Part shown: in pieces, positions 37,310 to 52,784 of the stretch
How positions within the stretch are numbered: position 1 is the stretch's first letter
Layout: each line of letters begins with the position of its first letter
Assembly: GCF_011299575.1 (NCBI RefSeq)
Contig: NZ_CP049863.1
Span: 1,798,001 to 1,862,000 of the forward strand
Length of the DNA: 64,000 nt
Origin: Leucobacter viscericola
Lineage (GTDB): Bacteria > Actinomycetota > Actinomycetes > Actinomycetales > Microbacteriaceae
Direction of reading: 5' to 3'
Program-made: the position numbers and the translations under genes
The notes under the pieces: generated by a model
Database searches by the model: none
Told to the model about the DNA's origin: nothing
What the model saw: only the letters and a program-made list of their open reading frames with translations

Positions 37310-37549
37310 TCACACACTGTCTTCAGCGCTCAGCACCAGAAGTGAGGCGGTGCCGCGATCACCGACAGAGTCTGATCCCACAGAGGTGAGGATCGACACG
37401 AGCGCCGCAAGCCCAGCGACCGAGAGCAATTGCGGCCAGTCGATCCCGAGCAACCCGGTGGCTCCCGCTGTGAGCAGCGCAACCGCGGCTTGCGCGAAGG
37501 TCTTCACGGCCCGCTCCCCGGCGTCCTTCCAGAACAGTTTCGTAAACAC
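37310..37549 (-). CDS. Holin, r1t family
   Basis: 79 residues: LFWKDAGERAVKTFAQAAVALLTAGATGLLGIDWPQLLSVAGLAALVSILTSV is the r1t-type two-helix holin pattern common in actinophages. The GTG start has GGAGG 6 bases upstream. It is the last gene of the minus-strand cluster. It would permeabilise the membrane so the endolysin escapes. Confidence 0.85.
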   Translation of the reverse strand: MFTKLFWKDAGERAVKTFAQAAVALLTAGATGLLGIDWPQLLSVAGLAALVSILTSVGSDSVGDRGTASLLVLSAEDSV

Positions 37550-37551
37550 TG

Positions 37552-37902
37552 TCAGCCTCCGTTAATGAGTCGTCCAACGAGGGTTGCACCGCCAGCGCCA
37601 ATGACGCCGACGATGATGGGCGGCAACCAGGTCAACCGCGAGACCTGGTTGCCGAGTGCACCCTGCTGCGTCTCGAGCGCCGTCACGCGAGCATCGAGCG
37701 AGCGAATGTCAGCAGCGTCGCCCTCCTGCCGAATCGTTGCCCCCTCGATGTTGCGCAACCTGCTGGAGTGCGAGTCAAGCCGTTCGTCGACCTTAGCGAG
37801 ACGTTCCACGATCACTTCAAGCTTCGCAAGCCGCTCCTGGGTGTTCTGGCCTTGCTTCCAGAGATCAGCCATGCCGACGTCTCCGGGCGGGGCCGCAATC
37901 AT
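37552..37902 (-). CDS. Coiled-coil single-helix membrane protein (XhlA-like lysis accessory)
   Basis: 116 residues. A long heptad-rich stretch (about 12-92: LAKLEVIVERLAKVDERLDSHSSRL, then ALETQQGALGNQV) precedes one C-terminal membrane helix (WLPPIIVGVIGAGGATLVGRL). This layout fits haemolysin XhlA/holin-accessory proteins. Its ATG overlaps the endolysin stop (ATGA), supporting that start over ATG 37872. Confidence 0.65.
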   Translation of the reverse strand: MIAAPPGDVGMADLWKQGQNTQERLAKLEVIVERLAKVDERLDSHSSRLRNIEGATIRQEGDAADIRSLDARVTALETQQGALGNQVSRLTWLPPIIVGVIGAGGATLVGRLINGG

Positions 37903-38567
37903 TTCGAGACTCGTTTGAATTTCGCCCAGCCTCCTCCGTCAGTGACGAACGGGGTGACGCCCAGCTGTTTTGCAAACGCATCGGCCGCCCGCTGCGTCGT
38001 GAGCTCCATCTGGAACTTGGGGCCAAAGATGAGCCAGCGGCCCTGACCTTTGCCCGCTGCATGCTCGTAAAATGCCATCAACAAGTTGTGCTCCTTTCTG
38101 TTTTGCGCCGCGGGTTTTGCGGGTGCGGCGTGTTTGGGGACGGGTTGGATGATCCTGACCCCGTTAATGTCTTCAGACCAGAACCGATAGCTCGCGGCAA
38201 ATGCGCGTTCTATGTCTGCGATGGTGCGGAACCACTCCCCCACTCCATAGCCGCTGCGCCGTGATGAGAAGAGCCCACCCGCCCCGCCGAACGCGGTGGG
38301 CTCCCAGATGACGACGTGCCCCCAGTCCTCATACTTGTGTTGCCCGTCACGGTAATCGGTGTAGGTGCCCCAGTGAGACAGCCACACCACGGCGGGTGCG
38401 TCGCCGGGAAGCGCCCGGTCGTGGTGCTGGTGCCTGGTCGCGTTGGCGGCGGCGGTAGCGCTGTGCGGGCCTCCAGGGGCACCCACGGCCTTTTGTGCCA
38501 TCGGGAGGCAGTTACCCGCGTACTCGTGGTGGGCGTAGCTCGGGATTACCAGCGTTTTGTAGGGCAT
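37899..38567 (-). CDS. Endolysin, cysteine-peptidase-like
   Basis: 222 residues. The N-terminal part has a conserved-looking NCLPMAQKAVGAPGG (Cys19) and later EDWGHVVIWEP (His near 84), the layout of CHAP-like or NlpC-type cysteine amidases. After about 145 an Ala/Pro linker leads to a C-terminal segment likely to bind cell wall (GRWLIFGPKFQMELTTQRAADAFAKQLG). AAGGAGG site. Adjacent to the holin genes, as expected for lysis. Confidence 0.7.
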   Translation of the reverse strand: MPYKTLVIPSYAHHEYAGNCLPMAQKAVGAPGGPHSATAAANATRHQHHDRALPGDAPAVVWLSHWGTYTDYRDGQHKYEDWGHVVIWEPTAFGGAGGLFSSRRSGYGVGEWFRTIADIERAFAASYRFWSEDINGVRIIQPVPKHAAPAKPAAQNRKEHNLLMAFYEHAAGKGQGRWLIFGPKFQMELTTQRAADAFAKQLGVTPFVTDGGGWAKFKRVSK

Positions 38568-38632
38568 GGGCCTCCTTAAGCGCGAAAGCTCCGCCGGTTG
38601 GGGCGAGGCTTAAGAAAAAGTTGGGAACTACC

Positions 38633-39046
38633 CTATTCAGTGACGATGACCTGATTCATCGCCTCAGTAAGTAGCTGCACTTGAGTTCGTGTCTCGTGCA
38701 ATTGAGTCCGAAGTTTCAGAGTTTCAGACGCCTCCTGTGTGGCTTCGGTCTCGGTTTTGGCGGCGTTTTCCGCAAGTACAGCAGTCACTCCATGGAGAAT
38801 CATCCGATCGGTGATAACTGCCGGATCCGCGCCTGCCGAGCCTGCCCATGCTGCGGGATCAGTGACTGTTTCTCCGTCGAGCACTTTCCCGTAGGAGTCG
38901 CTCCAACCCGGCTGCGCCGAAAGCGCCCACATGTGGCCCACCGCCCATAACCTTGCATCGTGGACCCCAAGACCGGCAGCGCACGCTCCCACTCGGTCAA
39001 TCAGAAAACTGTCCTCGGTGAGACGTGCCTGTGCAAGATAACTCAT
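38633..39046 (-). CDS. Small phage protein of unknown function between fibre and lysis genes
   Basis: 137 residues. N-terminal half is helical with Trp-rich HMWALSAQPGWSDSYG; the C-terminal third is a predicted coiled coil (TEATQEASETLKLRTQLHETRTQVQLLTEAMNQ). ATG 39046 has GGAAGGAAAAG upstream. Position suggests a fibre-associated or tail-assembly protein. No family is recognised. Confidence 0.65.
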   Translation of the reverse strand: MSYLAQARLTEDSFLIDRVGACAAGLGVHDARLWAVGHMWALSAQPGWSDSYGKVLDGETVTDPAAWAGSAGADPAVITDRMILHGVTAVLAENAAKTETEATQEASETLKLRTQLHETRTQVQLLTEAMNQVIVTE

Positions 39047-39060
39047 TCTACTTTTCCTTC

Positions 39061-40785
39061 CTAGATCCCGTAGACCGCACGAAGCACCTGGGTGTTTGCG
39101 GGTGCGACAGTATTGTCCGCGTGCCCAGTGATCCTGTTGTTGCTGATATATACGTATTTCCAAACCGGTGATTTCCAGCCGTAGATCGTTTGCAGCACAC
39201 CAGAACCAGCTGCGTCCACAACATGCGACTTTGGCACGAATACATAGTTCCATGATGAATTTGCTGCCACACCGTCCGCATATGCAGACCAAGCGAGCAC
39301 GACGCCGGTGAGTTGAGCGTTTATGTTCTCCAAAAGATTTACCGCTTGCGTCCCGCTCATGTACGACGCACCGGTCCAGAGACTCTTCAAACCGCGAGTT
39401 GACGAGATTCCAGTCGAGTCGAGCACGATTGCTTCCGAGTCCAGCTTGATTCGATTTGATGCTCCCCGAGGCGTCGCAATGTCGAAAGTGATGTTACTGT
39501 TCGCAGCACCTAGCCCAACAAACCGAACTATTCCGCTTGAGTTGTATTGCGTTTCTACAGTCTTCTTATTGATCGTTTCATTGACCGAAATTAGACCGCT
39601 GTCTAAAGTGGTCGTGTTCTTGCCATTCGTGCTAGAAAGAGCGCCCGTAAGCGCCAAGCCTCCCTCTTCAGAGGAGAGTGCCGCGGTCACAATATCCTTT
39701 GCCTTAAACACTCTTAGTCCAGTGACGTCAAGCTGGAGACGCTGTCCAGATTCGGCAGTTCGAATTGTTGCTCCGGTGATGACCTTGCCATCAATAGCTG
39801 ATGAAGCAAGAGCTTCAGCAGTCACCATTCCGTCAGCAATTTGAACGGTGCCTCCTTCACCAGCGACTAGAACTTGATCTGCAAGTATCTGATCGCGTAC
39901 CCACGACATTCCATTCCAGCGATCTACCTGAAATGGGCGCCCTCCCTCGTCCACTCGAACAAGCTGCGCTCCGAGACGAAACCCTCCTTCTGGCATCGGA
40001 GGTGCGTAAACTGCATCCGGACCCATCCGATAACGCGCATTACGCAGTGCATCCTCACGAGCCTGAGTCGCTTTCGAATCTGCCTGCGCTGCGGCCAGGG
40101 CCGCCGCATCCGCCGCGGCCAGAGCTTCAGCAGCTTTAGTCTTTGCCGCCAACTCTGCCGTATCGGCTTTCGCTTTCGCGTCAGCGGCCGCAGCGGCCTT
40201 CGCCTCAGCTACAGCTCGTGCGGTCTCATCATTTGCATCTGACCTTGCTTGCTCTGCTTGAGCCTCGGCAAATTCTTTAGCCGCCCTCTCAGCTTCGGCG
40301 GCCCGATCAATGGCGGATTGTGTCGCTTCAGCAGCTTCTCGCTGCGCCAAGCTCGCCGCGTTCCTGGCAGCCTCAGCCTCAACCCGTATAGCCTCGGCAG
40401 TCGCGCTCACCCCCTCGGCAAATTCGGACACTACAGCCGCATCAGCAATGGCCTTCTCAGCCGCTTCCAGAGCCTCTTCGACCGCCACAGAATTCTCAAT
40501 GCCAATCATGCTTGCATCGTGTGTCGCGTCCTCTAGCGATTGAGTCTGGTCCGTCAGGTCATAAATCGGATCAAGCACAGCGAGATCTTCGGAGTGACTT
40601 AGAACCACATCTGCCACTTCTGGAACGCTAGCCACCGCCTCTCCAACGTTGACTGTCTCGTCACCAACTTCAACAGATGAACGCTCAATCTGCCCGGTTC
40701 GCGCCAGGCTACCAACCGACAACTTCAGCGCCATGGCTCGTGCCGCCTGCTCTCGCAAGAGTTCTTTTCGAGCTAACGAAATCAT
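39061..40785 (-). CDS. Tail fibre/receptor-binding protein with long Ala-rich coiled coil
   Basis: 574 residues. Residues about 60-250 are an Ala/Glu-rich heptad region (AEATQSAIDRAAEAERAAKEF and similar), predicted as a trimeric rod. Residues about 260-420 hold beta-rich segments (MVTAEALASSAIDGKVITGATIRTAES), common in fibre shafts. The last 120 residues form a tip domain (VFVPKSHVVDAAG, WKYVYISNN). It overlaps the tip gene by 4 bases. It would determine host range; the target is unknown. Confidence 0.75.
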   Translation of the reverse strand: MISLARKELLREQAARAMALKLSVGSLARTGQIERSSVEVGDETVNVGEAVASVPEVADVVLSHSEDLAVLDPIYDLTDQTQSLEDATHDASMIGIENSVAVEEALEAAEKAIADAAVVSEFAEGVSATAEAIRVEAEAARNAASLAQREAAEATQSAIDRAAEAERAAKEFAEAQAEQARSDANDETARAVAEAKAAAAADAKAKADTAELAAKTKAAEALAAADAAALAAAQADSKATQAREDALRNARYRMGPDAVYAPPMPEGGFRLGAQLVRVDEGGRPFQVDRWNGMSWVRDQILADQVLVAGEGGTVQIADGMVTAEALASSAIDGKVITGATIRTAESGQRLQLDVTGLRVFKAKDIVTAALSSEEGGLALTGALSSTNGKNTTTLDSGLISVNETINKKTVETQYNSSGIVRFVGLGAANSNITFDIATPRGASNRIKLDSEAIVLDSTGISSTRGLKSLWTGASYMSGTQAVNLLENINAQLTGVVLAWSAYADGVAANSSWNYVFVPKSHVVDAAGSGVLQTIYGWKSPVWKYVYISNNRITGHADNTVAPANTQVLRAVYGI

Positions 40786-42233
40786 GCTGCTACCTCCAAC
40801 ACTAAATCAGCCACTGCAAGGTTGTTCCACTCGATTTCCGAGATTCTTGCCCAGAGCCGTTGTCGCCCAAGCCACCCTGCGTCAATGTCAACGAGGATCG
40901 TGTCGCCCACTCCAAAGGTGCCACGAGGCGCGTTCGGGTGCCGCGCATCTATTCGAATGGCAGATATCTTTAGGCTCGCCGAACGAGCCGCTAATTCACT
41001 GCGTGCGAGCGCCTCCACTAAAGATTGTTTGGTGAGGTGCTTCGCGGCAACAACGACTGGGGTACGACGACGACCATCCGCGAGGCCAACCTCAGCGCGT
41101 AAAGCGCTCTTGCCTTCACCCGCACCAAGCACCGTCACCGAATTGGCGTACTTACTCACGTCATCCGTGACCGAAACCTGCTCAGTGATGTTCGCGCCTT
41201 CAATGAATGCTAGATCGGTGCGTTTCTCACCAATTCTGGGAAGGCAGCGAATCTCTTTTAGCACCCTCGTGCGATCGCTGTTCCAGCCAGACCACTCCAC
41301 CCATTCATACCCGGCTTCGGTAATGGCATCAACCATCGCGTCGAGGCAATAAGGTGTGTCCCACCATAGAATCTTCCAGGCCCCCTTGTCAGTGTCGGCC
41401 TTTTGTCTCGCAGCATCATAGTCAGCCTTTGCGGCCTCATAGGACTCTTCGAGCGGCGCCTCCGTCGACTTAAGGCCTGCAATTTTTTCTTGATCAGACT
41501 TGATGAGCGCTTCTTTCGCCTCACGCTTCGTCTTGATCTCGGTCGACTTCGTATCAACAAGTTTTTTCTTCGCAGCGATGGTCGCAGCAGGTGCCTTCGC
41601 GGCGATGGCAGCGGCATACGCATCCTTTAGAACACGGCGATCTCGGTTCAAAACAAGGATCGCAGCATCGAAAGGTTTAGAAGCGGTTGCTACCTTCGCC
41701 TCAAGTGCCTTGCGAGGCTTCGCGTACTCGTCCCAGGAGGCCTTTTTTGCGTCCATGATTTTCTTGGCCGCGTCAGCTTTCAGATCCGAATCAGTCCCAC
41801 GACGAACACTCGAAGCACCCGTAACTTTCACACCAATGTTTGCCCCCGTTTTCGCCTGCGCATACTCAACAACATGCCGTGCTACAGCAATCGGGTCCAC
41901 CTTCACACCGTGGTACTCCCCTTCGTACGGGTACCCGCTGAAGTAAGACGAAAAGCCTTGGCCCTCAATCTTCCAGCGTGCCCCCTCAAAAGAAGATCGC
42001 GTGACGAGCCATGTGTTGCGAATAATCCCATCCGCCTCCTCATGGATGTAGGTCGCGCGAGGATCAATCAAAGTTTTACTTCCTGCATGCCGATACGCTT
42101 CCGCGATCGGAAGCACCTCTCCAGAAAACGCGCCGGCTCCGCAAAGCTTCTTTCCCGCGGTTGTGACGACGATGGGCAGTTCTAGTTCGAGAAACGCACC
42201 ATCACTGATCCGCTCCACAATGTACCGAAGCAC
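40782..42233 (-). CDS. Tail tip protein, siphovirus ReqiPepy6 Gp37-like, with coiled-coil insertion
   Basis: 483 residues. N- and C-terminal parts (LRYIVERISDGAFLELELPI...; RTDLAFIEGANITEQVSVTDD...; RQRLWARISEIEWNNL) follow actinophage Gp37-like tip proteins. An insertion of about 130 residues (about 155-290) is Lys/Ala/Glu-rich and coiled-coil-like. GTG at 42233 has AGGAG 6 bases upstream; GTG 42239 sits too close to that site. Forms the tail tip below Dit. Confidence 0.72.
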   Translation of the reverse strand: MLRYIVERISDGAFLELELPIVVTTAGKKLCGAGAFSGEVLPIAEAYRHAGSKTLIDPRATYIHEEADGIIRNTWLVTRSSFEGARWKIEGQGFSSYFSGYPYEGEYHGVKVDPIAVARHVVEYAQAKTGANIGVKVTGASSVRRGTDSDLKADAAKKIMDAKKASWDEYAKPRKALEAKVATASKPFDAAILVLNRDRRVLKDAYAAAIAAKAPAATIAAKKKLVDTKSTEIKTKREAKEALIKSDQEKIAGLKSTEAPLEESYEAAKADYDAARQKADTDKGAWKILWWDTPYCLDAMVDAITEAGYEWVEWSGWNSDRTRVLKEIRCLPRIGEKRTDLAFIEGANITEQVSVTDDVSKYANSVTVLGAGEGKSALRAEVGLADGRRRTPVVVAAKHLTKQSLVEALARSELAARSASLKISAIRIDARHPNAPRGTFGVGDTILVDIDAGWLGRQRLWARISEIEWNNLAVADLVLEVAA

Positions 42234-42242
42234 GGGCACCTC

Positions 42243-43313
42243 CTAAACAATGCGCTGCTCAAAATCAACCGTCAGTTTGAGCTGCGACGACCAGACAATT
42301 GCGGGTGTGCACTCAAGCACACCGCTCATTCGTACTGCCCTCGGAAAGAATCTCTTGCTGGTGCCGATCAGCTTTTCCGGGATGCGCCCCTCTTGAGATA
42401 CAGCAATATCTATAAAGGTCGTCACGTTCTCGAGCGTGTCCCACCCCCGCACCCGCGAACGCCACACGTCAGGATCGACGGTCTGTCCACACTGGATCCA
42501 AAAGTATCCCCAGCCGTTACCCTTGCCTCCGTAGTTACCGAGCCCCATCCACTCCATCTGCACATTCCAATGAGTTGCCCACTCAGGAATATCGAGAAGA
42601 AACCCCTGGTAAAGATTGCCCTGCGTCGGGAACGTGCCACCGGCTGGGTAGGCAGTCGTAGAGGTGATGTGCTGACGCCCTTCAAGTCCACCGATTTCCT
42701 GTAGCGACATCGTGCGGGCAATACTTTCTCGACGCGGGTTCTGAAGCGCCCTGAGATCTGTAATCATGTCCGCGGTGATGGTGGCTGTCGACTTTGGCCA
42801 GTCAATCGCAGCGAGAGTGATCCCCGTCACGTTTGCGTACGCCCCTGATTTGATCTGGTTCAGGGACGTAACCGGTCGCTGTTCCTGTGGCACGAGCGCA
42901 TCTACGTTGGGAATCACAGTGATGCGGCAAAAACTATCGCCGTCCTGCCAAGACTCAGGGGTCACAGGTTCCAAATAGGTGACCGATTCCATTTCGGGAT
43001 CCGTGATCTCTAGGATGATCAGGTCTCGGCGGGTAGTTTGCGAGCCCGTGCCCGGCACATCCGTGACCGTGAGCTCCCCATCAAGGATCGGCCCGTACGA
43101 TTCTCGTCTGGAGCCGTCGGTGTCTCGCGACTGAGCGATGCCACCGCCGGGCATCACTCGAAACCCGGTGCCGGGCTGGTTCAGCGGCAAGACCTTCAAG
43201 TCGCCTGGCTGATCAACTCCAGATCCCGGACCATTTTCTTTCTGAAGTGTGCGTCGGAACAGCCTCGCACTATGCTTCGACCCGTTAATGACGTGTGGAA
43301 CGTAAAACCCCAT
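42243..43313 (-). CDS. Minor tail protein
   Basis: 356 residues. MGFYVPHVINGSKHSARLFRRTLQ and LTVTDVPGTGSQTTRRDLIILEITDP are as in minor tail proteins of actinobacterial siphophages. A Trp-rich C-terminal half may be a carbohydrate-binding or spike domain. Good GAGGAGATC site. Part of the tail tip. Confidence 0.72.
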   Translation of the reverse strand: MGFYVPHVINGSKHSARLFRRTLQKENGPGSGVDQPGDLKVLPLNQPGTGFRVMPGGGIAQSRDTDGSRRESYGPILDGELTVTDVPGTGSQTTRRDLIILEITDPEMESVTYLEPVTPESWQDGDSFCRITVIPNVDALVPQEQRPVTSLNQIKSGAYANVTGITLAAIDWPKSTATITADMITDLRALQNPRRESIARTMSLQEIGGLEGRQHITSTTAYPAGGTFPTQGNLYQGFLLDIPEWATHWNVQMEWMGLGNYGGKGNGWGYFWIQCGQTVDPDVWRSRVRGWDTLENVTTFIDIAVSQEGRIPEKLIGTSKRFFPRAVRMSGVLECTPAIVWSSQLKLTVDFEQRIV

Positions 43314-43324
43314 AATGATCTCCT

Positions 43325-44209
43325 CTAAAAACTCGTGTATGCCGGCTCAACTGAGACGTCAAGCCACGCTGTGCCCGTGGTGTCGTAACCCCTGAGAATG
43401 ACGGTGTGGGCGCCCACGGGGAGCGCCATTTCAGACATCCGCGATCCAGCCGGCGATAACATGCCCGGCGCACCGTTGCCGTCCTTGAGTACCCAACGCG
43501 CCCAAGGACGCGTGTCGAGCACTACCACTTGGTCTGATGCGAGAATGCCGTTGAGAATCAGCTTTCCAACACCGGGCACATCAATGATTGGGTTCGTGAT
43601 CGGGCCGTGCACCGCGAATACGGGCCACGCAGCGGCTTCCCCAGTCACACGAATCGACTTACTGCGCACCATCGGACCAGAATCAAACGTGAAGGGAGCT
43701 TCTGCAGGAAACTCCAACCCGCCCGACACCGGCGGCACCATATTGATTCGGGTTACGGTGGGGTCCCCGTACCACCGCTTGTCCACCGTCTGAAAAGTTA
43801 GTGAGGGCTCTGCCGATCCGTCCCAAAGGGTCGAATCATCCGGGGTGAACTCTCGCATGTGCCCAAAAGCACGCACCTCACCGATCCGCAGCTCGGCTAT
43901 ATCTTCAATATCACCGCATTCGGTGTCACCGTCCCAGAACGACTCAAGTTCTCGGAGACGACTACGAACACTGGCTTCCTTCTCCGACTGCGAGGTGCCG
44001 CCACCAAGAACCGCGATCTTCAACTGATGCAGCGGCCCGTCACGAAACGCACGCCCGAGAATTGTGCCATTCCTGTTTGGAGCTGGGACATCGGTCGCCC
44101 TCAAACCGGGTACCCCGCGCACGAAACTGGTCAACACGTAGGGTGCGTCCCCACCAAAGTGTAGGGACGCACCGCGATGCGTGATTGACCCACTGTTGAG
44201 GTCAGTCAT
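43325..44209 (-). CDS. Distal tail protein (Dit-like, siphovirus tail component)
   Basis: 294 residues. ITHRGASLHFGGDAPYVLTSFVRGVPGLRATDVPAPNRNGTILGRAFRDG fits Dit/SPP1 gp19.1-type N-terminal domains; the C-terminal half is a beta-sandwich (AAWPVFAVHGPITNPII). GGAGCAG site upstream. Sits directly after the tape measure, the normal Dit position. Confidence 0.78.
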   Translation of the reverse strand: MTDLNSGSITHRGASLHFGGDAPYVLTSFVRGVPGLRATDVPAPNRNGTILGRAFRDGPLHQLKIAVLGGGTSQSEKEASVRSRLRELESFWDGDTECGDIEDIAELRIGEVRAFGHMREFTPDDSTLWDGSAEPSLTFQTVDKRWYGDPTVTRINMVPPVSGGLEFPAEAPFTFDSGPMVRSKSIRVTGEAAAWPVFAVHGPITNPIIDVPGVGKLILNGILASDQVVVLDTRPWARWVLKDGNGAPGMLSPAGSRMSEMALPVGAHTVILRGYDTTGTAWLDVSVEPAYTSF

Positions 44210-44221
44210 TTACTGCTCCAT

Positions 44222-47209
44222 TCATACATACTGACGCTGCATGACGGCAGCATCTTCAAGGCCACGATCGACCGCGTCATCGGCGATAACACGAGCTCGG
44301 GTCAGGATCGATCCGTCTGCATCGAGCAGCGTGACCTGGTCAGGGAATTCGCCACTTCCACTCTTCATTGCGTCCCACTGCGCACCGGTAAGGATCGGCT
44401 CCGGCCGACCCGTGCGGTTCTCCACCAGAGAGACGCCCGGCTGCAACCAGCCGCCCGTGTCGTAGAGGGTCGCCGAGGTTGATCCGTCACCGCCGATCCG
44501 GGGAGTGAACAGCTTTACAGCGCGCTCCGCGGTGTCTTTCACGAGCCCGGCAGCGGCGTCGATCCACATTCCACCCTCCGGGAACGCCTCCTTCACCTTG
44601 CCCGCGACCCAGTCGATTAGACCGGCAAGCGGGTTCCAAGCCTCGCCAAGCATCTTCGCGCTGCCGTCGAGGTAGGGGGCAGGATCGGTCATGTTGTTCC
44701 AGCCTCCCGGAGGAGTGTGAACCATATAGTGCAGGTGAGGTCCGGTCGACATGCCCGTTGAACCGACGTAGCCGATCACGTTGCCCTGCTGCACAGATTG
44801 CCCTTCGTGCACCGCGAATCGCGACAGGTGGGAGTACCGGGTCGCAAACCCTGACGGGTGTTGCAGCCTAATTTCCTTGCCGCCCATGTTGACAACACCC
44901 ACGTTGGTCGCGACGCCCTCGGCGGCCGCCATGATGGGCGTTCCCTCCGCCGCAGCCAGGTCGATGCCGTTGTGCCCGCCGTGGAACGGCTGGCTTACGT
45001 TGTAGCTTCCCTTCTTGAGCGGGTTCACAAGGCCACCAGAGGCGTAACCGGGAATCTCGCCAAAGCGGTTCATGTGGTCGAGCGCCCCGGGGTGGGAACG
45101 TTCGATCTGCCTACGCGAAGCAGCGCGGATCACGTGCTCGTTGCCGTGCACGACTCCCGCGACGGCGGAATGTGGCAGATTGCCCGTGTAGCCGCCCTCC
45201 GAGAATCCCTTAGGTAGTTTGATCGGCGCCAGATTCACACCGGGAATCACATTGATCATGTCGATCAGCCCGTTGAGCACGGTGTTCACTACAAAGCGCA
45301 CAGGCTTCTTGGCGAGCTCCTGGATCCCTTCCCAGGCCTTGCCAATCCCATCACGAGCTGCCTCGAAGGCCTTCTTCGGATCCGATTGGATCACACTCGA
45401 CATTGTGTCGATGACCGGCTTGATGTGGTCCTCCCACACGGATCGAATCAGACCAGATATCCCATCCCAAGCCGGCTGGATGTACTCCTGCCACAACCCC
45501 GTAAAGACTTGGCCAAGAATCTGGATCGCGACGCTGATATTGTCAACAATCGGCTGAATAATCTCCAACCAAATCCAATTAAAGAGCAGCCCCAACCCAT
45601 CAAACACCGGCTGAACATGCTCCTGCCACAACCCCATAAAAACTTGGCCAAGAATCTGGATCGCGACGCTGATATTGTCAACAATCGGCTGAATAATCTC
45701 CAACCAAATCCAATTAAAGAGCAGCCCCAACCCATCAAACACCGGCTGAACATGCTCCTGCCACAACCCCATAAAAACTTGGCCAAGAATCTGGATCGCG
45801 ACGCTGATATTGTCAACAATCGGCTGAATAATCTCCAACCAGATCCAAGTGAAGATCGCACCAAGCCCCTCAAGTACCGGCTTCAGCATGGTCTCCCAGA
45901 CCATGACAAAAAGCCCACTGACGTTTTCCCAAGCTTCACTGAGGAACCCGGTGAATTGTTCCCAGATTTGCTTACCGAGCTCAGTCTGCGTGAAAAACCA
46001 AACAAGACCAGCGACGAGCGCGGCAATCGCCATAACGATGAGCATGATTGGGTTTGCTGCAAGCGCAGCGTTGTAAAGCAATTGCACCGCAGCCGCAGCC
46101 TCTGTCGCGAGCGTCCAGGCCCCAAACGCCAACGCAGCCCCACCAATCGCCGCAGCGATGGGCGCGACCCAGGTGTAGTTGTCCTGTAACCATTTGCTTA
46201 CGTTTTGCATGGCTGTTGCAGCGCTTTCAAGAGCCCCCTTCAACCACGTCCCAAACGCCTCGGCCAGAGGCTTCACATTTACCGCCGCTTCATCGAGCCA
46301 TTTTGAAATCTCTTGGAACACCGGCGCAATCTGGGGGAAGACATCCTCCATGATCGTCATGGCGAGCCGCTCTAGCGATCCCATCATGATGTCGAACGAA
46401 CCAGTGGCGGTGCCACCCATCTCGTTCGAGATGGCACCCGCGGCGGTCGAAGCCGCCTGTTCAAACGCCCCAAAACTGATCTGCCCATTCGCAGCCATCT
46501 TGAAGACCTCGTCGGTGGTCACCCCAAGCTGATCAGCAAGTGCTTTGTAAACCGGGATCCCACGACCCTCAAGGTCATTGAGCACATCGTTCTGAACGCC
46601 ACCCATCTGCGAGGCAGCTCCTGCGAAGATGGAGCCCATTGTGCCAAAGTCAGTGCCCGCGGCGGCGGCGCTGCTCCCGACTGTCTTCAGTACACTTTCG
46701 AGCTGTTGACCAGGGGCAATGTTCGCCGCCATCAGCTGACCGGCGACACCAGCGGCATCACCTACTCCAAACGCTGTCCCCTGAACAGCAGCAAACGCAT
46801 TGTCTGTTGCCTTTGCGACCGCCGCGCTATCATTCCCGAGGCCGCGCATTTTTGCTTGCGCGACATCTATCGCGTTCAGTTGGTCAACTCCCGAAGAGAA
46901 CGCATTACCCAGGGTTGACATGACAGCGTTCCCAACAGTTGCCAGCCCCTTTTGAAATCCGGCACCGAGGGTCTTCGCAATGCGGGATCCCGGACCCTCA
47001 CCATCGGCCTTATCAAGTTCTTTCTTGACGTCTTCGGCAACCTCAGGAACTTTTACATTTACTGGAACATCAGGGAGATTGAAATCCTTGAAGCTATTCG
47101 GAAGTTTGACGTTTACAGGAAGATCAGGAAGCTTAATATCCTTAGAAAAGTCCGGGAGCTTCAGCGAATATGAAACCTGCCCGCTCGTGGTTGTTGAACT
47201 GCTTGCCAT
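44222..47209 (-). CDS. Tape measure protein with M23 peptidase domain
   Basis: 995 residues. ATG 47209 is preceded by a perfect AAGGAGG. N-terminal LPD-type repeats (KLPDLPVNVKLPN, NLPDVPVNVKVP), then the helical TMP body (GNAFSSGVDQLNAIDVAQAKM), membrane-spanning hydrophobic region (about 370-420: AAIGGAALAFGAWTLA, IMLIVMAIAALVAGLVWFF), then three tandem copies of a 45-residue unit. The C-terminal third carries an M23 (LytM) endopeptidase: HNGIDLAAAEG, then YSHLSRF and GPHLHYMVH, with all metal ligands present. It sets tail length and probably cuts peptidoglycan during penetration. Confidence 0.9.
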   Translation of the reverse strand: MASSSTTTSGQVSYSLKLPDFSKDIKLPDLPVNVKLPNSFKDFNLPDVPVNVKVPEVAEDVKKELDKADGEGPGSRIAKTLGAGFQKGLATVGNAVMSTLGNAFSSGVDQLNAIDVAQAKMRGLGNDSAAVAKATDNAFAAVQGTAFGVGDAAGVAGQLMAANIAPGQQLESVLKTVGSSAAAAGTDFGTMGSIFAGAASQMGGVQNDVLNDLEGRGIPVYKALADQLGVTTDEVFKMAANGQISFGAFEQAASTAAGAISNEMGGTATGSFDIMMGSLERLAMTIMEDVFPQIAPVFQEISKWLDEAAVNVKPLAEAFGTWLKGALESAATAMQNVSKWLQDNYTWVAPIAAAIGGAALAFGAWTLATEAAAAVQLLYNAALAANPIMLIVMAIAALVAGLVWFFTQTELGKQIWEQFTGFLSEAWENVSGLFVMVWETMLKPVLEGLGAIFTWIWLEIIQPIVDNISVAIQILGQVFMGLWQEHVQPVFDGLGLLFNWIWLEIIQPIVDNISVAIQILGQVFMGLWQEHVQPVFDGLGLLFNWIWLEIIQPIVDNISVAIQILGQVFTGLWQEYIQPAWDGISGLIRSVWEDHIKPVIDTMSSVIQSDPKKAFEAARDGIGKAWEGIQELAKKPVRFVVNTVLNGLIDMINVIPGVNLAPIKLPKGFSEGGYTGNLPHSAVAGVVHGNEHVIRAASRRQIERSHPGALDHMNRFGEIPGYASGGLVNPLKKGSYNVSQPFHGGHNGIDLAAAEGTPIMAAAEGVATNVGVVNMGGKEIRLQHPSGFATRYSHLSRFAVHEGQSVQQGNVIGYVGSTGMSTGPHLHYMVHTPPGGWNNMTDPAPYLDGSAKMLGEAWNPLAGLIDWVAGKVKEAFPEGGMWIDAAAGLVKDTAERAVKLFTPRIGGDGSTSATLYDTGGWLQPGVSLVENRTGRPEPILTGAQWDAMKSGSGEFPDQVTLLDADGSILTRARVIADDAVDRGLEDAAVMQRQYV
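45481..45885 (-). repeat. Tandem 135-base repeat inside the tape measure gene
   Basis: The 135-base unit (45 codons: IWLEIIQPIVDNISVAIQIL and the following 25 residues) is repeated near-perfectly; the phase marker GGCCAAGAAT recurs at 45511, 45646 and 45781. Two copies are identical or nearly so; the flanking third diverges. A recent duplication that keeps the reading frame. Confidence 0.92.
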
Positions 47210-47291
47210 GTGGCCTCCTTGGGGTAGGGCACCGAACCCCAAGGGATCCGGGCGAAAAGAAACTTGTATTCGCCCGGATCAGTGGTCAGGG

Positions 47292-48025
47292 CTACGGATG
47301 CTGGATCCTCCGTTGTTTGAAGCGGCTCGCTCCAGATCTCAGGCGTTCCAACCGCCGCTCGCGTTCGTGCTCACCCTCGGGATAGGGGCGTGGTTTGACT
47401 CGCTTGGGCTTCGACGATTGTGATGCCCAGACGGCATGCTCGATCCACCTGAGCATGTCTTCTTCGCCGGTGAGCGCAGACTGACCACCAAGCCAAACGC
47501 CGATCGCACCGCCGCGTGGCATGTGCCTGACGTACAAGGCAACGTCTTCAGGATCCTCGGTGCCCGCCCACATGTCCGAGAGTCGGACCGAGTAGAACCG
47601 CCGCAGATCGGCAGCCACTCGGTCCGGACACTCTCGAAGAAGGTAGGCGAGCGTTAGGAGTTTTTTGCGCCGACCTTCTCGTAGATCACGTTGACGAGTT
47701 CGGTCAGTTTCTCAAAGTCCGAGAAGCCGTCTTCGTCCTCAAGCGCCTTGATCACACGGGCGAGTGAGTCTTCACCGATCAGGTTGCTCAGAACCGTCTC
47801 GATGTCGTTGTTGCGCAGCGCGAACATGGTTGGTGTGTGCTTCGGAGCACGCGAATCAACCTCGAAGTGTTCACCCGCAAAGTCGACGCGGATCACGTCG
47901 TGAGGTCCGCGCTGGTGATCCCTCGGCTTTGCCCGCGACTGCTCCCGAGTGCGAACAGTGTCGCCAGACTCACGTGCGGTGTAGTCGCTGTCGCTCGGGT
48001 GGGTGTTGGAATACGTGTTGGTCAT
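47292..48025 (-). CDS. Tail assembly chaperone, long form by -1 frameshift
   Basis: This entry joins the short-form frame to the -1 frame after A AAA AAC at 47666-47660. The shifted reading continues LLTLAYLLRECPDRVAADLRRFYSV and ends at 47292 (total 244 residues). The -1 frame is open across the junction, and the length is 3n-1, as a -1 shift needs. The second half alone could start at GTG 47618, but no good ribosome site is seen. This is the gpG/gpGT arrangement of siphophages: both forms chaperone the tape measure during tail assembly. Confidence 0.85.
47654..48025 (-). CDS. Tail assembly chaperone, short form
   Basis: 123 residues with a disordered N-terminus and DVIRVDFAGEHFEVD then helical ETVLSNLIGEDSLARVIKALEDEDGFSDFEKL. 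GGAG lies 7 bases before the ATG. It sits between tail tube and tape measure, the standard position. The last codons are GCA AAA AAC TCC TAA, which include the slippery heptamer. Confidence 0.85.
   Translation of the reverse strand: MTNTYSNTHPSDSDYTARESGDTVRTREQSRAKPRDHQRGPHDVIRVDFAGEHFEVDSRAPKHTPTMFALRNNDIETVLSNLIGEDSLARVIKALEDEDGFSDFEKLTELVNVIYEKVGAKNS
47660..47666 (-). other. Programmed -1 frameshift site (A AAA AAC)
   Basis: The heptamer A AAA AAC is placed in zero frame exactly as X XXY YYZ (codons GCA AAA AAC). The zero-frame stop follows two codons later. The -1 frame then reads through to 47292. A AAA AAC is among the most efficient -1 slip heptamers known in bacteria. Confidence 0.9.
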
Positions 48026-48070
48026 GTGGTGACTCCATTTCTTGAAATAGGGGTGTGACTCTGGAGAGAA

Positions 48071-48103
48071 GAACGGGGCGCGGAGTCACCACGCGCCCCG
48101 TTC
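48071..48103 (-). terminator. Hairpin after the tail tube gene
   Basis: Arms GAACGGGGCGCG (48071-48082) and CGCGCCCCGTTC (48092-48103) form a perfect 12-base stem, read on the minus strand just past the tail tube stop and followed by TTCTCT. Partial termination would give more tube than tape measure protein. Confidence 0.75.
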
Positions 48104-48110
48104 GGTTTTG

Positions 48111-48677
48111 TTAAGCCGCGGCTTCGAGGAAGGCGGGCTCGTCAGACAGCCAGTAGCTTCCGCTTGTCTCGGTCATCGTGAACTCGTACACGGAATCGTC
48201 CTCGACGTTTGTCACGTAAGCACCGCGCTCAGACACCGCAGCCAGCTCGATGCACTTCAGACGCGTGTAGCCTGCGTTATCGACAAACTTGACGATCACG
48301 GTCTTCTCAATCGTTGGAATCGACTTCGGCATGTCGACACGCGCGATCTTGTTCTCGCCGGTACCCACAAGGCTCGGCTTGCCGTGGCCGTAGTAGAGCC
48401 CTGTGACCTCGGGGTCATCTTCAAGTGCCGCAAACTTGTGCGACTTCTTGGTCGAGGTGTTGCGAAGCTTCACAATGGCGCCGCCCTGCCAAGCCTTCGT
48501 TTCCTTCGCCTCGACCTCGACGCTCTCTTCGATACCACCCTCAGAAATCCAGCCAACCTCAATGAATTCGGTCGGAATGGTGAGATCGGTTGTGGGCAGC
48601 GTGGAGCCCTTGGGAGCGATCCAAACGCCTGATTCTTCGGCGTTCCATTCCCGCATGTTGTCCTGGTTCTTAGCCAT
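48111..48677 (-). CDS. Major tail tube protein
   Basis: 188 residues. GVWIAPKGSTLPTTDLTIP, EVGWISEGGIEESVEVEAKETKAWQGG and the acidic C-terminal SGSYWLSDEP follow actinophage/Lambda-like major tail proteins. It overlaps the preceding small gene by one base. It polymerises into the non-contractile tube. Confidence 0.85.
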   Translation of the reverse strand: MAKNQDNMREWNAEESGVWIAPKGSTLPTTDLTIPTEFIEVGWISEGGIEESVEVEAKETKAWQGGAIVKLRNTSTKKSHKFAALEDDPEVTGLYYGHGKPSLVGTGENKIARVDMPKSIPTIEKTVIVKFVDNAGYTRLKCIELAAVSERGAYVTNVEDDSVYEFTMTETSGSYWLSDEPAFLEAAA

Positions 48678-48853
48678 TACTTGCTCTCCTTCTTTGCCTG
48701 AACGGCGCTCTTCTGGTCTGTGGCCACCGCGCGTGCCTTACCGCGGCTGATGAGGTCGCGGGCGGTACCCGGCTCAACCTCTACGGGGTGTCCCCCTTCG
48801 TGGGTTCGACCCTCTGCATCGACCCAGTCATTTGCAATCACAACTTTCGTCAC
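48677..48853 (-). CDS. Small protein between tail terminator and tail tube
   Basis: 58 residues (TKVVIANDWVDAEGRTHEGGHPVEVEPGTARDLISRGKARAV), a short beta motif seen in small phage head-tail or tail genes. GTG 48853 has GGAG 5 bases upstream; GTG 48859 abuts the site. Possibly a head-to-tail adaptor remnant. Function not assigned. Confidence 0.6.
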   Translation of the reverse strand: MTKVVIANDWVDAEGRTHEGGHPVEVEPGTARDLISRGKARAVATDQKSAVQAKKESK

Positions 48854-48886
48854 GATCACTCCTTTCTTTGTGCGTGCCCCTAAGAA

Positions 48887-49267
48887 TTAGGGGGTTGGGA
48901 ACCTGCCCCGGATCTCCATCTGGACAGTGAACTGGTAGTGCTCCGAGCCGCCATTCTTAGTGGGTCGGCGCGGTCCTTTGAGCACGCGGTTGCGCCTCAC
49001 AGGTCTATCGGCCACGACGCGTGCGTTTAGCACGTGTCGCATGGTCTCCGAGGCGAGGATCGCGGTCGCCTCTCGAGTTTCCGCCCAGCAGTGGAAGGTG
49101 ACTTTCACCACGTCGTGCGCCAACTTTGGCGCTCCGCCCGTGCGTTCCACGCGGATGAACCGGTCTGGCCGTTCGGGGGGAACATCAACACCAACCTCGG
49201 TGGCCTGCGTTGATCGCAGATAGGCCACGAGCGCGTCCTCTGCTGGTTCAAATAGGTACTGATTCAC
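48887..49267 (-). CDS. Tail terminator / tail completion protein
   Basis: 126 residues. DALVAYLRSTQATEVGVDVPPERPDRFIRVERTGGAPK plus VKVTFHCWAETREATAILASETMRHVL fit siphophage tail terminators (gpU/DUF3168-like). GTG 49267 has GGAGG 4 bases upstream; the longer frame lacks such a site. First gene of the tail module; normally it follows the head genes. Confidence 0.7.
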   Translation of the reverse strand: MNQYLFEPAEDALVAYLRSTQATEVGVDVPPERPDRFIRVERTGGAPKLAHDVVKVTFHCWAETREATAILASETMRHVLNARVVADRPVRRNRVLKGPRRPTKNGGSEHYQFTVQMEIRGRFPTP

Positions 49268-49421
49268 GAGTCCTCCAAAACTGTGCGGTCTTAACTTCTT
49301 CTGACAAATACGCCGATAGGCCTTCGTTGATCTCGAAGTTCCTGTCGCAGCAGAGAAGCGCGGCTTTGACGCTGGGATAGCGCGAGCCGCAGACATCACA
49401 CTCTTGCTGGCCGTCGGACAT
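49248..49421 (-). CDS. 57-residue Cys-rich small protein
   Basis: A short frame with AAAGGAGG 6 bases before its ATG. It begins MSDGQQECDVCGSRYPSVKA and continues with LLCC; the CxxC and CC pairs suggest a small zinc site. It ends 20 bases inside the next gene, so translation is probably coupled. No family recognised; it marks the edge where head genes would be expected. Confidence 0.6.
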   Translation of the reverse strand: MSDGQQECDVCGSRYPSVKAALLCCDRNFEINEGLSAYLSEEVKTAQFWRTRESVPI

Positions 49422-49820
49422 CAGCGGCCTCCTTTCGAACCTCGATTTTTGGCACGCCGAATGAGATCGGTGGGTGCGTTAGCCGCGTTACTCGTCGCGG
49501 CAGAACAGCAGAACAGCAGATAACGCTCTTGCAGCGTTCCTGCGCACAACCTCAGACCCGTGAGCTCTACAGACTCAACGTGCGGGCATTGGCAAGGATC
49601 CTCGCCGATCGCGAGGAAGAACAGCCGTCAAGAACCTGGCCTTTGGCCAACAACCTTGCCGCAGGTGAGGAGGTGGGATGACACCCGGCTTCACTTACCA
49701 TTTGCGGCCGATAACCGCGCAATGCCCCCAGAAACGAAAAAAGCTCCTGATCTTTCGATCGGAGCTTTTCGAGGGAGTAAGCACACTTCTCCCTGACCAC
49801 TTAGTAGCCTAACACAAAAA
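49422..49820. other. Gene-free gap where phage head genes would lie
   Basis: About 400 bases hold no credible gene; a 77-codon minus frame (49567-49800) crosses a strong terminator and lacks a good start. In siphophages terminase, portal, protease, capsid and adaptors sit between DUF7341-like genes and the tail terminator. Here only a terminator (49737-49769) and a short CAGAACAGCAGAACAGCAGA tract near 49502 are seen. Confidence 0.6.
49737..49769 (-). terminator. Rho-independent terminator after the DUF7341-like gene
   Basis: On the minus strand, arms of AAAAGCTCC/GATC type (49739-49752 and 49757-49769, one bulge) pair around four bases and are followed by six T. It ends the short early transcript before the tail genes, so the tail genes need read-through or their own promoter. 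Confidence 0.85.
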
Positions 49821-50519
49821 TCAACTCATCGCATCTTGGCCCCGCGAAAGCCCCGACCGATCAACACGAATACCACAACTCTCAAGCACAGCGGTATCCA
49901 CAGAGGCCTGCACAGAAAAACCGAGCTTCGTAATTTCACTCCACCCAACCCAGAGCGCCTCGCACTCCTCAGCCCGACACTCCGCAATCGGAGCGCGCCC
50001 CTCTGCATACTCGATGACCACCGCCGCTCGCCGCTCGCCGCCGTCAAGCACCCAGCGGGCCTCGCAACGCGGGCACGGAACCGTGAGCTCCATCTGGCGA
50101 GGTCGCACATTCTGTTCGGCTTCGATCCTTACCACCCACGACTCAACCTCCTCACACACCTGCAGCCACTGCCCGTCGGCCAACTCACCCTGCGACCTCG
50201 AACGCCGCGCAACAGTCCACGCCTCAGCGACATCAGCCAAGAGAGCGTTGCTCCCACTCTGTTTTGCCAGGTACAAACCCTCTCGAATTCGCCCATTCGC
50301 GCGTCGAATATCGTTCAGAACACGTAGCGCACCAAAGTTGATCGGGATCCCCAGGCCATTCGAGCCCGCACCGCCACGTTTGACAACCTCGGTTATCGAC
50401 CGGTCTAACCAATCGAGCAGAGGCGGCCAATCAACCGCGCCGGCCTCTGTCATTTCGGTGTGCGGCTGGGTCAATCGCACAATCGCGCGCTCCGCTGCGG
50501 TCACAGAAACCACCATCAT
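49821..50519 (-). CDS. DUF7341-like phage protein with zinc ribbon
   Basis: 232 residues. PPLLDWLDRSITEVVKRGGAGSNGLGIPINFGALRVL and a C-terminal CPRCEARW...CRAEECEALW zinc-ribbon resemble a family common near terminase genes in actinobacteriophages. ATG overlaps the previous stop by 4 bases. Role unknown. Confidence 0.65.
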   Translation of the reverse strand: MMVVSVTAAERAIVRLTQPHTEMTEAGAVDWPPLLDWLDRSITEVVKRGGAGSNGLGIPINFGALRVLNDIRRANGRIREGLYLAKQSGSNALLADVAEAWTVARRSRSQGELADGQWLQVCEEVESWVVRIEAEQNVRPRQMELTVPCPRCEARWVLDGGERRAAVVIEYAEGRAPIAECRAEECEALWVGWSEITKLGFSVQASVDTAVLESCGIRVDRSGLSRGQDAMS

Positions 50520-50830
50520 TCACCCTCCTCTTCAGTCACGTCTTGCAACCCATCCGGGTCGCCATCGTCCCCAAACTGCCCATCATCAGTCAGGAGCCAC
50601 AGGGCGTATTGCTCTCGCTTCACTTGCCTCGCAAGACGAGGGCATTCTGGATTCCCCGCCCGCAAAAAGGGATTCATGCACCGCCCACAGCGGTGCGGTC
50701 TTTCGCCGCGCTCCACATCGGCGAGCGACAGCCCGCGGCGGTACTCTTTGACCCCCGCGGCTTTGCTCACGCGCTCAGCCTTCTCCGCCAAGCGAATATT
50801 CGGTTCGCCCATCAACATGCTCTCCTGCAT
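50516..50830 (-). CDS. Small Cys-rich phage protein
   Basis: 104 residues with HRCGRCMNPFLRAGNPECPRL, a CxxC...C motif that could bind zinc, and an acidic tail. AAGGAG 6 bases before ATG 50830. First gene of the minus-strand cluster, directly under the divergent promoter. Possibly a transcription factor or early regulator; not assigned. Confidence 0.6.
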   Translation of the reverse strand: MQESMLMGEPNIRLAEKAERVSKAAGVKEYRRGLSLADVERGERPHRCGRCMNPFLRAGNPECPRLARQVKREQYALWLLTDDGQFGDDGDPDGLQDVTEEEGE

Positions 50831-50867
50831 TTCCGTCTCCTTCTCAACTCACGCCCCGATGCGTTAC

Positions 50868-50994
50868 GTCAAGCAGAATTACACACTACTTGACATAATG
50901 CAAGCTAGTTGAGCTAAATAACTGGACTTATGTCGCTTTAAATTGAGCGGTGCATGATTCTTCTTGACGTGTTACAGTGAGCGCATGTCAAGAA
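50868..50994. promoter_or_regulatory. Divergent promoter with two inverted-repeat operator candidates
   Basis: GTCAAG (50868-50873) and CTTGAC (50889-50894) form one pair; TTCTTGAC (50961-50968) and GTCAAGAA (50987-50994) form a perfect 8-base pair that overlaps the XRE start. The shared half-site GTCAAG on both flanks suits an XRE-type repressor controlling both directions. A minus-strand TGTAAT lies beside the first pair. Confidence 0.6.
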
Positions 50995-51437
50995 ACGACT
51001 CCGCCATGGTTCCGTTTGAAGAGCGCAAGCATCTGGCCTCACAGGTCAAAGGCCTTCGCCAAAGCGCTGGCCTGAAACAGCAGGATCTTGCCGACCTTGT
51101 TGGCATCTCGCGTCAGGCGCTCTCAAACATCGAGCGCGGGGCAACTCCGCAGATTGAGAACCTACGTAAGATCTACGAGGCTCTCGGCGCAGATCTGCAA
51201 ACAAGCAACCGGAGCGCAGACACCACGGTCTGGCTTGGAATCATCGGGGGCATGCTCGACACACTCGATCGACACCGTCAGGGCAAAGCCGGACAGGCCG
51301 CTGTTAACGCCATTGCCGCGGTTATCGCAGAGCCGAGTGTCAGTGGCCTGCCGGAGAATAACGATCCTCGACAAAGAAGCGACTATGCGCTTGCGGCCCA
51401 CGAAGAAATCGATGAAACGGGCGAAGACACCTACTAG
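50985..51437 (+). CDS. XRE-family helix-turn-helix regulator (phage-type repressor)
   Basis: 150 residues. LRQSAGLKQQDLADLVGISRQALSNIERGATPQ (about 23-55) is a classic XRE helix-turn-helix. The rest is helical and hydrophilic. ATG 50985 follows a weak site. It precedes an ImmA/IrrE protease gene by 18 bases; this pair resembles ImmR/ImmA, where the protease removes the repressor after DNA damage. Likely silences the tail cluster. Confidence 0.82.
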   Translation: MSRNDSAMVPFEERKHLASQVKGLRQSAGLKQQDLADLVGISRQALSNIERGATPQIENLRKIYEALGADLQTSNRSADTTVWLGIIGGMLDTLDRHRQGKAGQAAVNAIAAVIAEPSVSGLPENNDPRQRSDYALAAHEEIDETGEDTY

Positions 51438-51455
51438 ACGAGAGGGGATGATGCC

Positions 51456-51905
51456 GTGGAACTTCTCTATGACTATGCCGCGAGCATCGACGTGACGATT
51501 GAGTATGCAGACCTGAGCCACCTCCATCGAGTTGGCGATTACTGCCTGCAAACCCGTGAGGTGCGCATCCAAGATGGCATGCTCTACCGCAAAACTCGCT
51601 CTATCCTTGCCCACGAACTCGGGCACGCTACGAACAGCGACGAGCCCACGGTCTTCGAACACCTCAATCGGCGCATGGAACTTCGTGCCGACGAGTGGGC
51701 CGCACACTTTCTCATTAACGAAACGGCCTACAGAGACGCCACCCTCAAGTTCGGGCGCCATCTACCCTCCGTCGCGCAGGAGCTCTGCGTGCTTGAGAAA
51801 CTCGTCGTTGCCTACGAACGCACGCTCGAACGAGTCGGCGACACCGTGTACGTGAACCCCCGCATGGGTGCAGGTCAGTGGTCCCAGCGCTTAACCGCGA
51901 CATAA
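51456..51905 (+). CDS. ImmA/IrrE-family metallopeptidase
   Basis: 149 residues with the zinc motif HELGH in ILAHELGHATNS and a downstream RADEWAAHF (third ligand). GTG start follows GAGGGGATG. Such proteins cleave their cognate XRE repressor on damage signals. The order repressor-protease argues for inducible control of the tail cluster. Confidence 0.85.
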   Translation: MELLYDYAASIDVTIEYADLSHLHRVGDYCLQTREVRIQDGMLYRKTRSILAHELGHATNSDEPTVFEHLNRRMELRADEWAAHFLINETAYRDATLKFGRHLPSVAQELCVLEKLVVAYERTLERVGDTVYVNPRMGAGQWSQRLTAT

Positions 51906-52050
51906 CGCTCCCCGTCTCAGCCGAGAACCCGTTGCTAAGGGGCCGTTCAGACCTCTGCTCCGTGATGGCGAAGGACACGCCACACTTGCACATCGCCGAG
52001 GGGTGGCTCACCTCAGCACTCAGCTTGGGTGTGCTCTGTATACTGCCGCA

Positions 52051-52698: not shown

Positions 52699-52702
52699 TC
52701 TG

Positions 52703-52784
52703 TGGCGGATGAGGGATTCGAACCCCCGTAGGCATAGCCAGCTGATTTACAGTCAGCCCCCTTTGGCCGCTCGGGTAATCCGCC
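52703..52784 (-). tRNA. tRNA-Tyr (GTA)
   Basis: 82 bases on the minus strand. The 7-base acceptor stem GGCGGAT/ATCCGCC, anticodon stem-loop GCTGA-CTGTAAA-TCAGC with anticodon GTA, and the T loop TTCGAAT are in place. A long variable arm is as expected for a type II tRNA. CCA is not encoded. No phage integrase or duplicate 3' end is next to it. Confidence 0.95.

Follow-up and report, generated by a model that had tools for sequence, protein, structure and literature searches.

A headless siphovirus tail and lysis block beside a tRNA-Tyr gene of Leucobacter viscericola, a candidate F-type tailocin

The F-pyocin of Pseudomonas aeruginosa is a headless, non-contractile tail related to that of phage lambda and governed by regulators other than those described here. 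A locus of the same headless, non-contractile tail type, differing from the F-pyocin in both of these respects, lies at 37310-51905 of a window of 64,000 nucleotides (positions 1798001-1862000) that we analysed in the 3.70-Mb single-contig genome of the actinobacterium Leucobacter viscericola, of the family Microbacteriaceae. F-type tailocins, of which the F-pyocin and the Listeria monocin are named, are described as rare (PMC10811719), and tailocins are regarded as likely to have evolved independently many times (PMC12090994). As outlined in one account, the Listeria monocin has a CI-like repressor and a DUF955 metalloprotease (MpaR) on one strand and two early genes on the other, followed by a tail module without capsid genes and a holin-endolysin pair; the outline includes no excision or replication module, and it reports SOS-dependent production and killing (PMC6872733). 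Rhizoviticin of Allorhizobium vitis is reported as an F-type tailocin from a chimeric prophage, one part of which supplied the regulators, and its antagonism was shown (PMC10811719). The window holds the monocin gene order, namely a switch, two divergent early genes, a capsid-free tail and a holin-endolysin pair, although its host belongs to another phylum and the likeness is to the layout as described. Rhizoviticin has an alphaproteobacterial host, and the window element, in contrast to both systems, is known from its genes alone. No actinobacterial F-type tailocin was apparent in the titles and abstract openings of the papers listed for tailocins in Leucobacter, Actinomycetota, Microbacterium and actinobacteria. 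The locus described here is a predicted F-type tailocin, by gene content, with a monocin-type layout in an actinobacterium.

With moderate confidence, we interpret the block as a tail-only derivative, kept by its host, of a temperate siphovirus formerly integrated in the tRNA-Tyr gene, and hence as an F-type tailocin. This interpretation draws on the gene content and open frames, the lack of head genes, a regulatory and lysis chassis found at the same site in a sister species, two other headless loci, and the monocin-type layout. A preliminary description of this stretch had also put forward a candidate F-type tailocin, and as a candidate it is supported. To the extent that predicted genes allow, 37310-51905 is confirmed as an intact siphovirus tail operon with lysis genes and an XRE/ImmA switch. 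The minus strand carries the tail and lysis genes and the plus strand the XRE and ImmA genes, as follows (profile matches with E-values in brackets):

37310..37549, minus strand: holin of the r1t type (PF16945, 2.3e-29; phrog_443, 2.8e-26)
37552..37902, minus strand: XhlA-like holin partner (weak PF10779 match, 4.4e-4, below the cut-off; 94% identical in prophage A of the same genome)
37899..38567, minus strand: endolysin, CHAP-like by eye (no Pfam match; phrog_12298, 7.6e-7; 83% in L. coleopterorum at the same site)
38633..39046, minus strand: small protein adjoining the fibre (tblastn matches in 7/10 relatives, there also beside tails; start by eye)
39061..40785, minus strand: tail fibre (phrog_7389, 1.2e-16)
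40782..42239, minus strand: tail tip or minor tail protein (phrog_1885, 7.2e-44)
42243..43313, minus strand: minor tail protein (phrog_25212, 2.9e-33)
43325..44209, minus strand: minor tail protein, Dit by position (phrog_5577, 5.5e-12)
44222..47209, minus strand: tape measure protein of 995 residues, ATG at 47209 (M23 peptidase PF01551, 1.4e-27; TMP_3 PF20155, 5.4e-14)
47292..47660, minus strand: tail assembly chaperone, -1 frameshift extension (phrog_5813, 2.1e-9; reading frame)
47654..48025, minus strand: tail assembly chaperone, first part (phrog_1526, 5.7e-4; slip site 47666-47660)
48111..48677, minus strand: tail tube protein (PF25681, 1e-10; phrog_117, 3e-23)
48677..48853, minus strand: small protein upstream of the tube (phrog_8441, 5e-5)
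48887..49267, minus strand: tail terminator (phrog_123, 2.5e-18; start by eye, probably 49267)
49268..49736, no strand: junction, where relatives hold 9.0-11.4 kb with head genes
49737..49808, minus strand: putative late-control element, a -10-like box and terminator-like hairpin (aligned in L. coleopterorum)
49821..50519, minus strand: phrog_1467/DUF7341 protein with zinc-ribbon-like cysteines, proposed late-gene regulator (phrog_1467, 6.9e-8; DUF7341 just below the cut-off)
50516..50830, minus strand: small cysteine-containing early protein (61% over 68 residues in L. coleopterorum; no family match)
50860..50971, no strand: operator-like inverted repeats between the divergent promoters (at 50860-50902 and 50960-50971; conserved in L. 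coleopterorum)
50985..51437, plus strand: XRE/CI-like repressor (HTH_3, 7.9e-14; start by eye)
51456..51905, plus strand: ImmA-type metalloprotease, proposed anti-repressor (PF06114, 1.6e-9; phrog_87, 1.6e-14)
52702..52784, minus strand: tRNA-Tyr (attachment site of a complete prophage in genome G001)

The reading frames of the block are open throughout, and 97% of 37310-49279 is coding by our own gene list. The -1 slip site A_AAA_AAC at 47666-47660 is intact and identical in three complete relatives (A, B and C), and the tape measure gene carries a tandem repeat of 2.9 copies of 135 bp. All three features, frames, slip site and repeat, are as the preliminary description had them, and most of the proteins that it named (tail terminator, tube, chaperone, tape measure with M23 peptidase, tip and fibre) have PHROG or Pfam matches. 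Its Dit holds as a tail protein, the Dit identity being given by position only. Of its endolysin and two holin-like proteins, the r1t holin is well matched, the CHAP-like character of the endolysin is a judgement by eye, and the XhlA match is weak. The XRE/ImmA pair and the divergent operator-like repeats were also recovered, and the phrog_1467/DUF7341 gene at 49821-50519 is an addition to these parts.

Head genes were sought with 15 profile hidden Markov models (HMMs) over the window and 19.9 kb on each side (103.8 kb in total); the one labelled J_terL corresponds to a portal protein according to PHROG. No match to terminase, portal, protease or capsid was obtained in the 103.8 kb; on the left of the block about 57 kb, and on its right 32 kb, yielded no head gene. 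The earlier failure to see these genes is thus upheld over a span wider than the 30 kb that had been proposed for such a search. As a positive control, the same 15 HMMs matched 39/39 viral-contig loci in which more than 7 kb precedes the tube and 29/41 with 7 kb or less (80 loci overall); in the 12 loci that gave no head match, one of which is the element of the window itself, 0.5-5.0 kb lies upstream. This element is listed in IMG/VR as an uncultivated virus (L122, IMGVR_UViG_2873614151_000003) of 14.6 kb, with 3.2 kb upstream and no head match. Two integrase queries, one of them named by eye, had no match in the window, and no replication or integration family occurs among the PHROG and Pfam matches of the block's open reading frames (ORFs), in agreement with what had been noted before. 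At E 1e-3 there is no sheath family among the block matches. By these searches, the block lacks the terminase, portal, capsid and integrase expected of an intact prophage and has the gene content expected of an F-type tailocin: a siphovirus-type tail without a sheath, and no head, packaging, replication or integration genes. A holin-endolysin pair for release is present by gene content, with the endolysin recognised by eye and by a weak match.

The origin of the block can be read from its relatives in the genus. A search with the tail tube found 13 places in 10/54 genomes, of which 11 were examined, the window and ten others (G001 at 2.20 Mb and G003 were left out); a separate tail-tube search of genome contigs gave 8 loci, one of them a weak match in a metagenome-assembled genome, which was not used, and six of the eight named relatives belong to Leucobacter. 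Head or packaging genes are present in all ten of the other loci, and none was found in the window. Those of nine loci were called by comparison with phages ArV2 and R1; G040 has portal, protease and capsid matches, and the G031 locus, which ends at a contig edge, shows only a capsid and an adaptor. Homologous tail genes in the same order occur in complete Leucobacter siphovirus prophages and in Arthrobacter phage ArV2, which differ from the window in carrying terminase, portal, protease and capsid genes. In the seven relatives in which both genes were matched, 9.0-11.4 kb separates the tail terminator from the phrog_1467 homolog upstream of it, and head genes occupy this interval; the distance in the window is 0.55 kb. 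Judged from this gene order, the literal history of the block is descent from a prophage whose head block was lost at this point. The preliminary description had allowed for such a loss at 49422-49820; the loss stands, and the junction is corrected to 49268-49820. An ORF of 57 residues with cysteine pairs lies at the junction (49248-49421) and overlaps the start of the tail terminator. Between the chaperone and the tape measure, 9/10 relatives have a small gene, which in the two tested encodes neck protein phrog_387, and no neck gene was found at this place in the block. With both the head block and this separately placed neck gene missing, more than one loss is indicated. Among deposited phages, none covers 80% of the block as DNA, and 80% coverage of the tape measure, at 36%, is reached by two records, both of the same phage.

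One of the seven relatives, the head-bearing prophage A, resides at about 0.69 Mb in the same genome. The closest counterparts seen of the window's XhlA (94%) and tube (89%) are those of prophage A, so gene exchange between the two elements is likely. The presence of this complete prophage, with its very similar tube, chaperone and XhlA, would also allow another role for the block, in which it would give prophage A heads tails with a different fibre and thereby a second host range. In favour of this role, the tail terminator has been kept, and there is strong divergence from prophage A in parts of the fibre (30-44%) and in the protein at 42243-43313 (37%). Yet the terminator, which would have to meet the neck of prophage A, is only 42% identical to its counterpart there, and we regard this role as improbable.

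The element adjoins the tRNA-Tyr gene. At the same tRNA, G001 has a complete 40.5-kb prophage: 40 bp of the tRNA 3' half recur 40.5 kb away with head genes between, and the interval from the tRNA to ImmA contains a presumed integrase, a 72% relative of a G028 gene that is itself read as an integrase gene. ImmA genes are also found beside tRNA-Tyr in G028, G016 and G033. No 13-base repeat is shared by tRNA-Tyr and the left part of the window, where the end of tRNA-Tyr is not repeated. In G016 (L080:5471-8941) and G033 (L081:5726-8400), ImmA and M23-type sequences without a phrog_1467 match lie beside tRNA-Tyr, and ImmA-like matches occur at this tRNA in G030 and G031.

In L. coleopterorum, the closest species seen, the host genes are collinear with the window at 78-86% DNA identity, and the same site holds the switch region (window 49720-51890) at 75% and the lysis region (37341-38611) at 78%. 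The XRE, ImmA and phrog_1467 genes, the late element, and the lysin, XhlA-like and holin genes are thus kept as a common chassis, and 4.6 kb of other cargo replaces 11 kb of tail genes. This cargo encodes a protein that combines a peptidoglycan-binding domain with a weak match to Rv2525c-like glycoside hydrolases, as well as a small membrane protein, and it is interrupted by an IS3-type-like element (by eye). In this assembly XhlA is in two frames and PutA in three pieces; it may therefore hold base errors, and we claim no decay from it. The ratio of nonsynonymous to synonymous rates (dN/dS) between the window and L. coleopterorum is 0.05 for ImmA, 0.09 for XRE, 0.08 for the phrog_1467 gene and 0.07 for the lysin, and in the flanks 0.03 for glyS, 0.03 for w26042, 0.10 for w29536, 0.08 for GNAT and 0.09 for PutA (part); flank ORF w26972, at 0.47, may not be a real gene. 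By this measure, the four chassis genes are under purifying selection. Because the part common to both species is the switch and the lysis genes, not the tail, the locus might be kept for XRE immunity to phages of this group or for its lysis cassette, with the tail as a passenger. This would leave unexplained both the open frames of an 11-kb tail operon and the headless tails found elsewhere, and we give it little credence.

Headless tails were surveyed in the family with the tube profile in 398 sampled genomes, which gave 28 places in 26 genomes, all of them examined. Head or packaging genes are present in 25/28, and three loci in three genera (the window, G259 and G076) are headless. The G259 locus, in a genome flagged as 9% contaminated, has XRE, ImmA, a phrog_1467 match (E 4e-4), terminator, tube, chaperones, tape measure, a tail protein and a lysin-like protein, retains two connector (head-tail adaptor) proteins, and has ArsB as its neighbour at one end and TetR and thiolase genes at the opposite end. 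Its tube is 80% identical to that of a head-bearing locus in G210, of the same genus, where the copy has one stop. It resembles its head-bearing counterpart as the tube of the window resembles that of prophage A, and on these comparisons head loss appears to be repeated within the family. The G076 locus has a phrog_1467 protein (4e-17), tube, tape measure, Dit-like and tip proteins, an amidase and an XhlA-like protein, and ImmA was not found in it. It is not a clean headless case, for it keeps a replication-initiation-like protein and, among the tail-tip genes, a phrog_3398 'virion structural protein', which PHROG assigns to head and packaging.

Several observations weigh against a tailocin kept by its host. 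The tail in this arrangement was seen in one genome, no conspecific genome being found. Comparison with sister genomes, which had been suggested earlier as a sign of domestication, gave a divided answer: the chassis lies at the same site in L. coleopterorum, and conservation of the tail across strains is not borne out, this sister having no tail at the site. Of 12 sister loci fetched beside PutA, 11 had no chassis match (E 1e-8), L. coleopterorum alone being matched. The chassis has a synonymous divergence (dS) of 1.02-2.12, equal to or higher than in the flanks (0.28-1.26); this fits common descent and could also follow from two separate insertions. The GC content of the tail, 0.577, is near that of prophage A (0.597) and unlike that of the host flank (0.656), and long residence is not indicated. 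In relative-rate counts with prophage A and an outgroup (window-only/A-only changes), the tail terminator (28/13) and Dit (68/28) changed faster in the window; the tube (8/5), chaperone (5/4 and 9/8), tape measure (134/156) and tip (42/44) showed no significant acceleration. A terminator freed from contact with the neck might change in this way, and recombination can give the same pattern.

The single genome, the phage-like GC content, the accelerated terminator and Dit, the interrupted cargo at the sister locus and the lack of the chassis in 11 of the 12 sister loci would all suit a recently crippled prophage, as would the head-tail adaptors of G259, which are expected after a recent deletion. 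In such a prophage the head, replication and integration genes would have been deleted, the intact tail frames would reflect only a short time, and nothing useful would be made. This is the main rival to the tailocin reading, and we judge it unlikely. No integrase was found, and both the head block and a separate neck gene have disappeared, yet the regulator, late element, tail and lysis genes are whole; the chassis is under purifying selection relative to the sister species; and headless loci number three, in three genera.

The most novel point is the shared chassis with its swapped cargo. Tentatively, we suggest that the tRNA-Tyr site can hold a domesticated chassis, made up of the ImmA/XRE switch, the phrog_1467 gene with its promoter-hairpin element and the lysis cassette, into which antibacterial cargo is exchanged, and that local prophages repeatedly gave rise to headless versions within the family. 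The cargo would be a headless tail here and a peptidoglycan-binding glycoside-hydrolase-like protein in L. coleopterorum. Were this the case, particles and enzymes used as weapons would be released by one and the same lysis-coupled system. Leucobacter lysin islands (G012, which is L. coleopterorum, and G021 and G043, two other species) resemble the block in their ImmA, phrog_1467 and lysis-type genes and differ from it in having cell-wall hydrolase-like genes instead of a tail.

In phage lambda the Q gene, the pR' promoter and the tR' terminator lie in this order, and the phrog_1467 gene is likewise followed by a promoter-like box and then a hairpin. A hairpin with a T-rich stretch within 160 bases behind the gene beats all 15 shuffles in 11/21 loci, including the window and L. 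coleopterorum with small margins in both, and a -10-like box is present in 8/21 loci (the shuffles served the hairpin only). The gene product has 75 relatives besides itself, and in deposited phages it is found in two records of one phage. Its structural model (pLDDT, the predicted local distance difference test, of 88) contains helices, a sheet and zinc-ribbon-like cysteines; it had no confident or informative match among solved structures, and its significant structural matches are only to phage models, in several actinophages. By analogy with lambda, our working hypothesis is that the protein may be a Q-like late regulator.

From these parts we infer the regulation, particle assembly, release and killing as follows. 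XRE would repress the divergent early promoter until, upon DNA damage, ImmA inactivates it, as in ImmR/ImmA and with MpaR of the monocin, and both early genes would then be expressed. The phrog_1467 protein would open the late promoter that immediately follows its gene, and it might do so by escorting RNA polymerase across the hairpin. Tail genes would follow, with the chaperone made through the -1 frameshift and the tape measure setting the tube length, which would come to about 150 nm if 0.15 nm per tape-measure residue applies. The holin, XhlA-like protein and endolysin would burst the cell, and the freed non-contractile tails would bind related cells by the fibre and harm them. If active, the element would offer a precise, non-replicating killer for actinobacteria, a natural comparison of tail and enzyme within one chassis, and, in DUF7341, a testable candidate for a late regulator.

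Some neighbouring and related loci complete the description. A putative surface protein of 1290 residues (33364-37236) lies between the host genes and the holin, has a 60% paralog at 3.20 Mb, and is absent at the matching site of L. coleopterorum; a DUF6882 gene (52003-52563) between ImmA and tRNA-Tyr is also absent from that site. The lysin islands of G021 (L077:7963-15000) and G043 (L078:5559-12126) lie behind nrdEF-like genes (by eye) and hold ImmA, phrog_1467 and M23/CHAP-like hydrolases; they have no tail or head marker match except M23 domains, and a holin match in G021 only. Two more prophage-like regions of the L. viscericola genome (G000:C1, at about 2.76-2.80 Mb and 3.15-3.19 Mb) are alike in their matches; both contain a phrog_1467 gene and a tRNA-Tyr, and both have distant matches to tail and capsid proteins.

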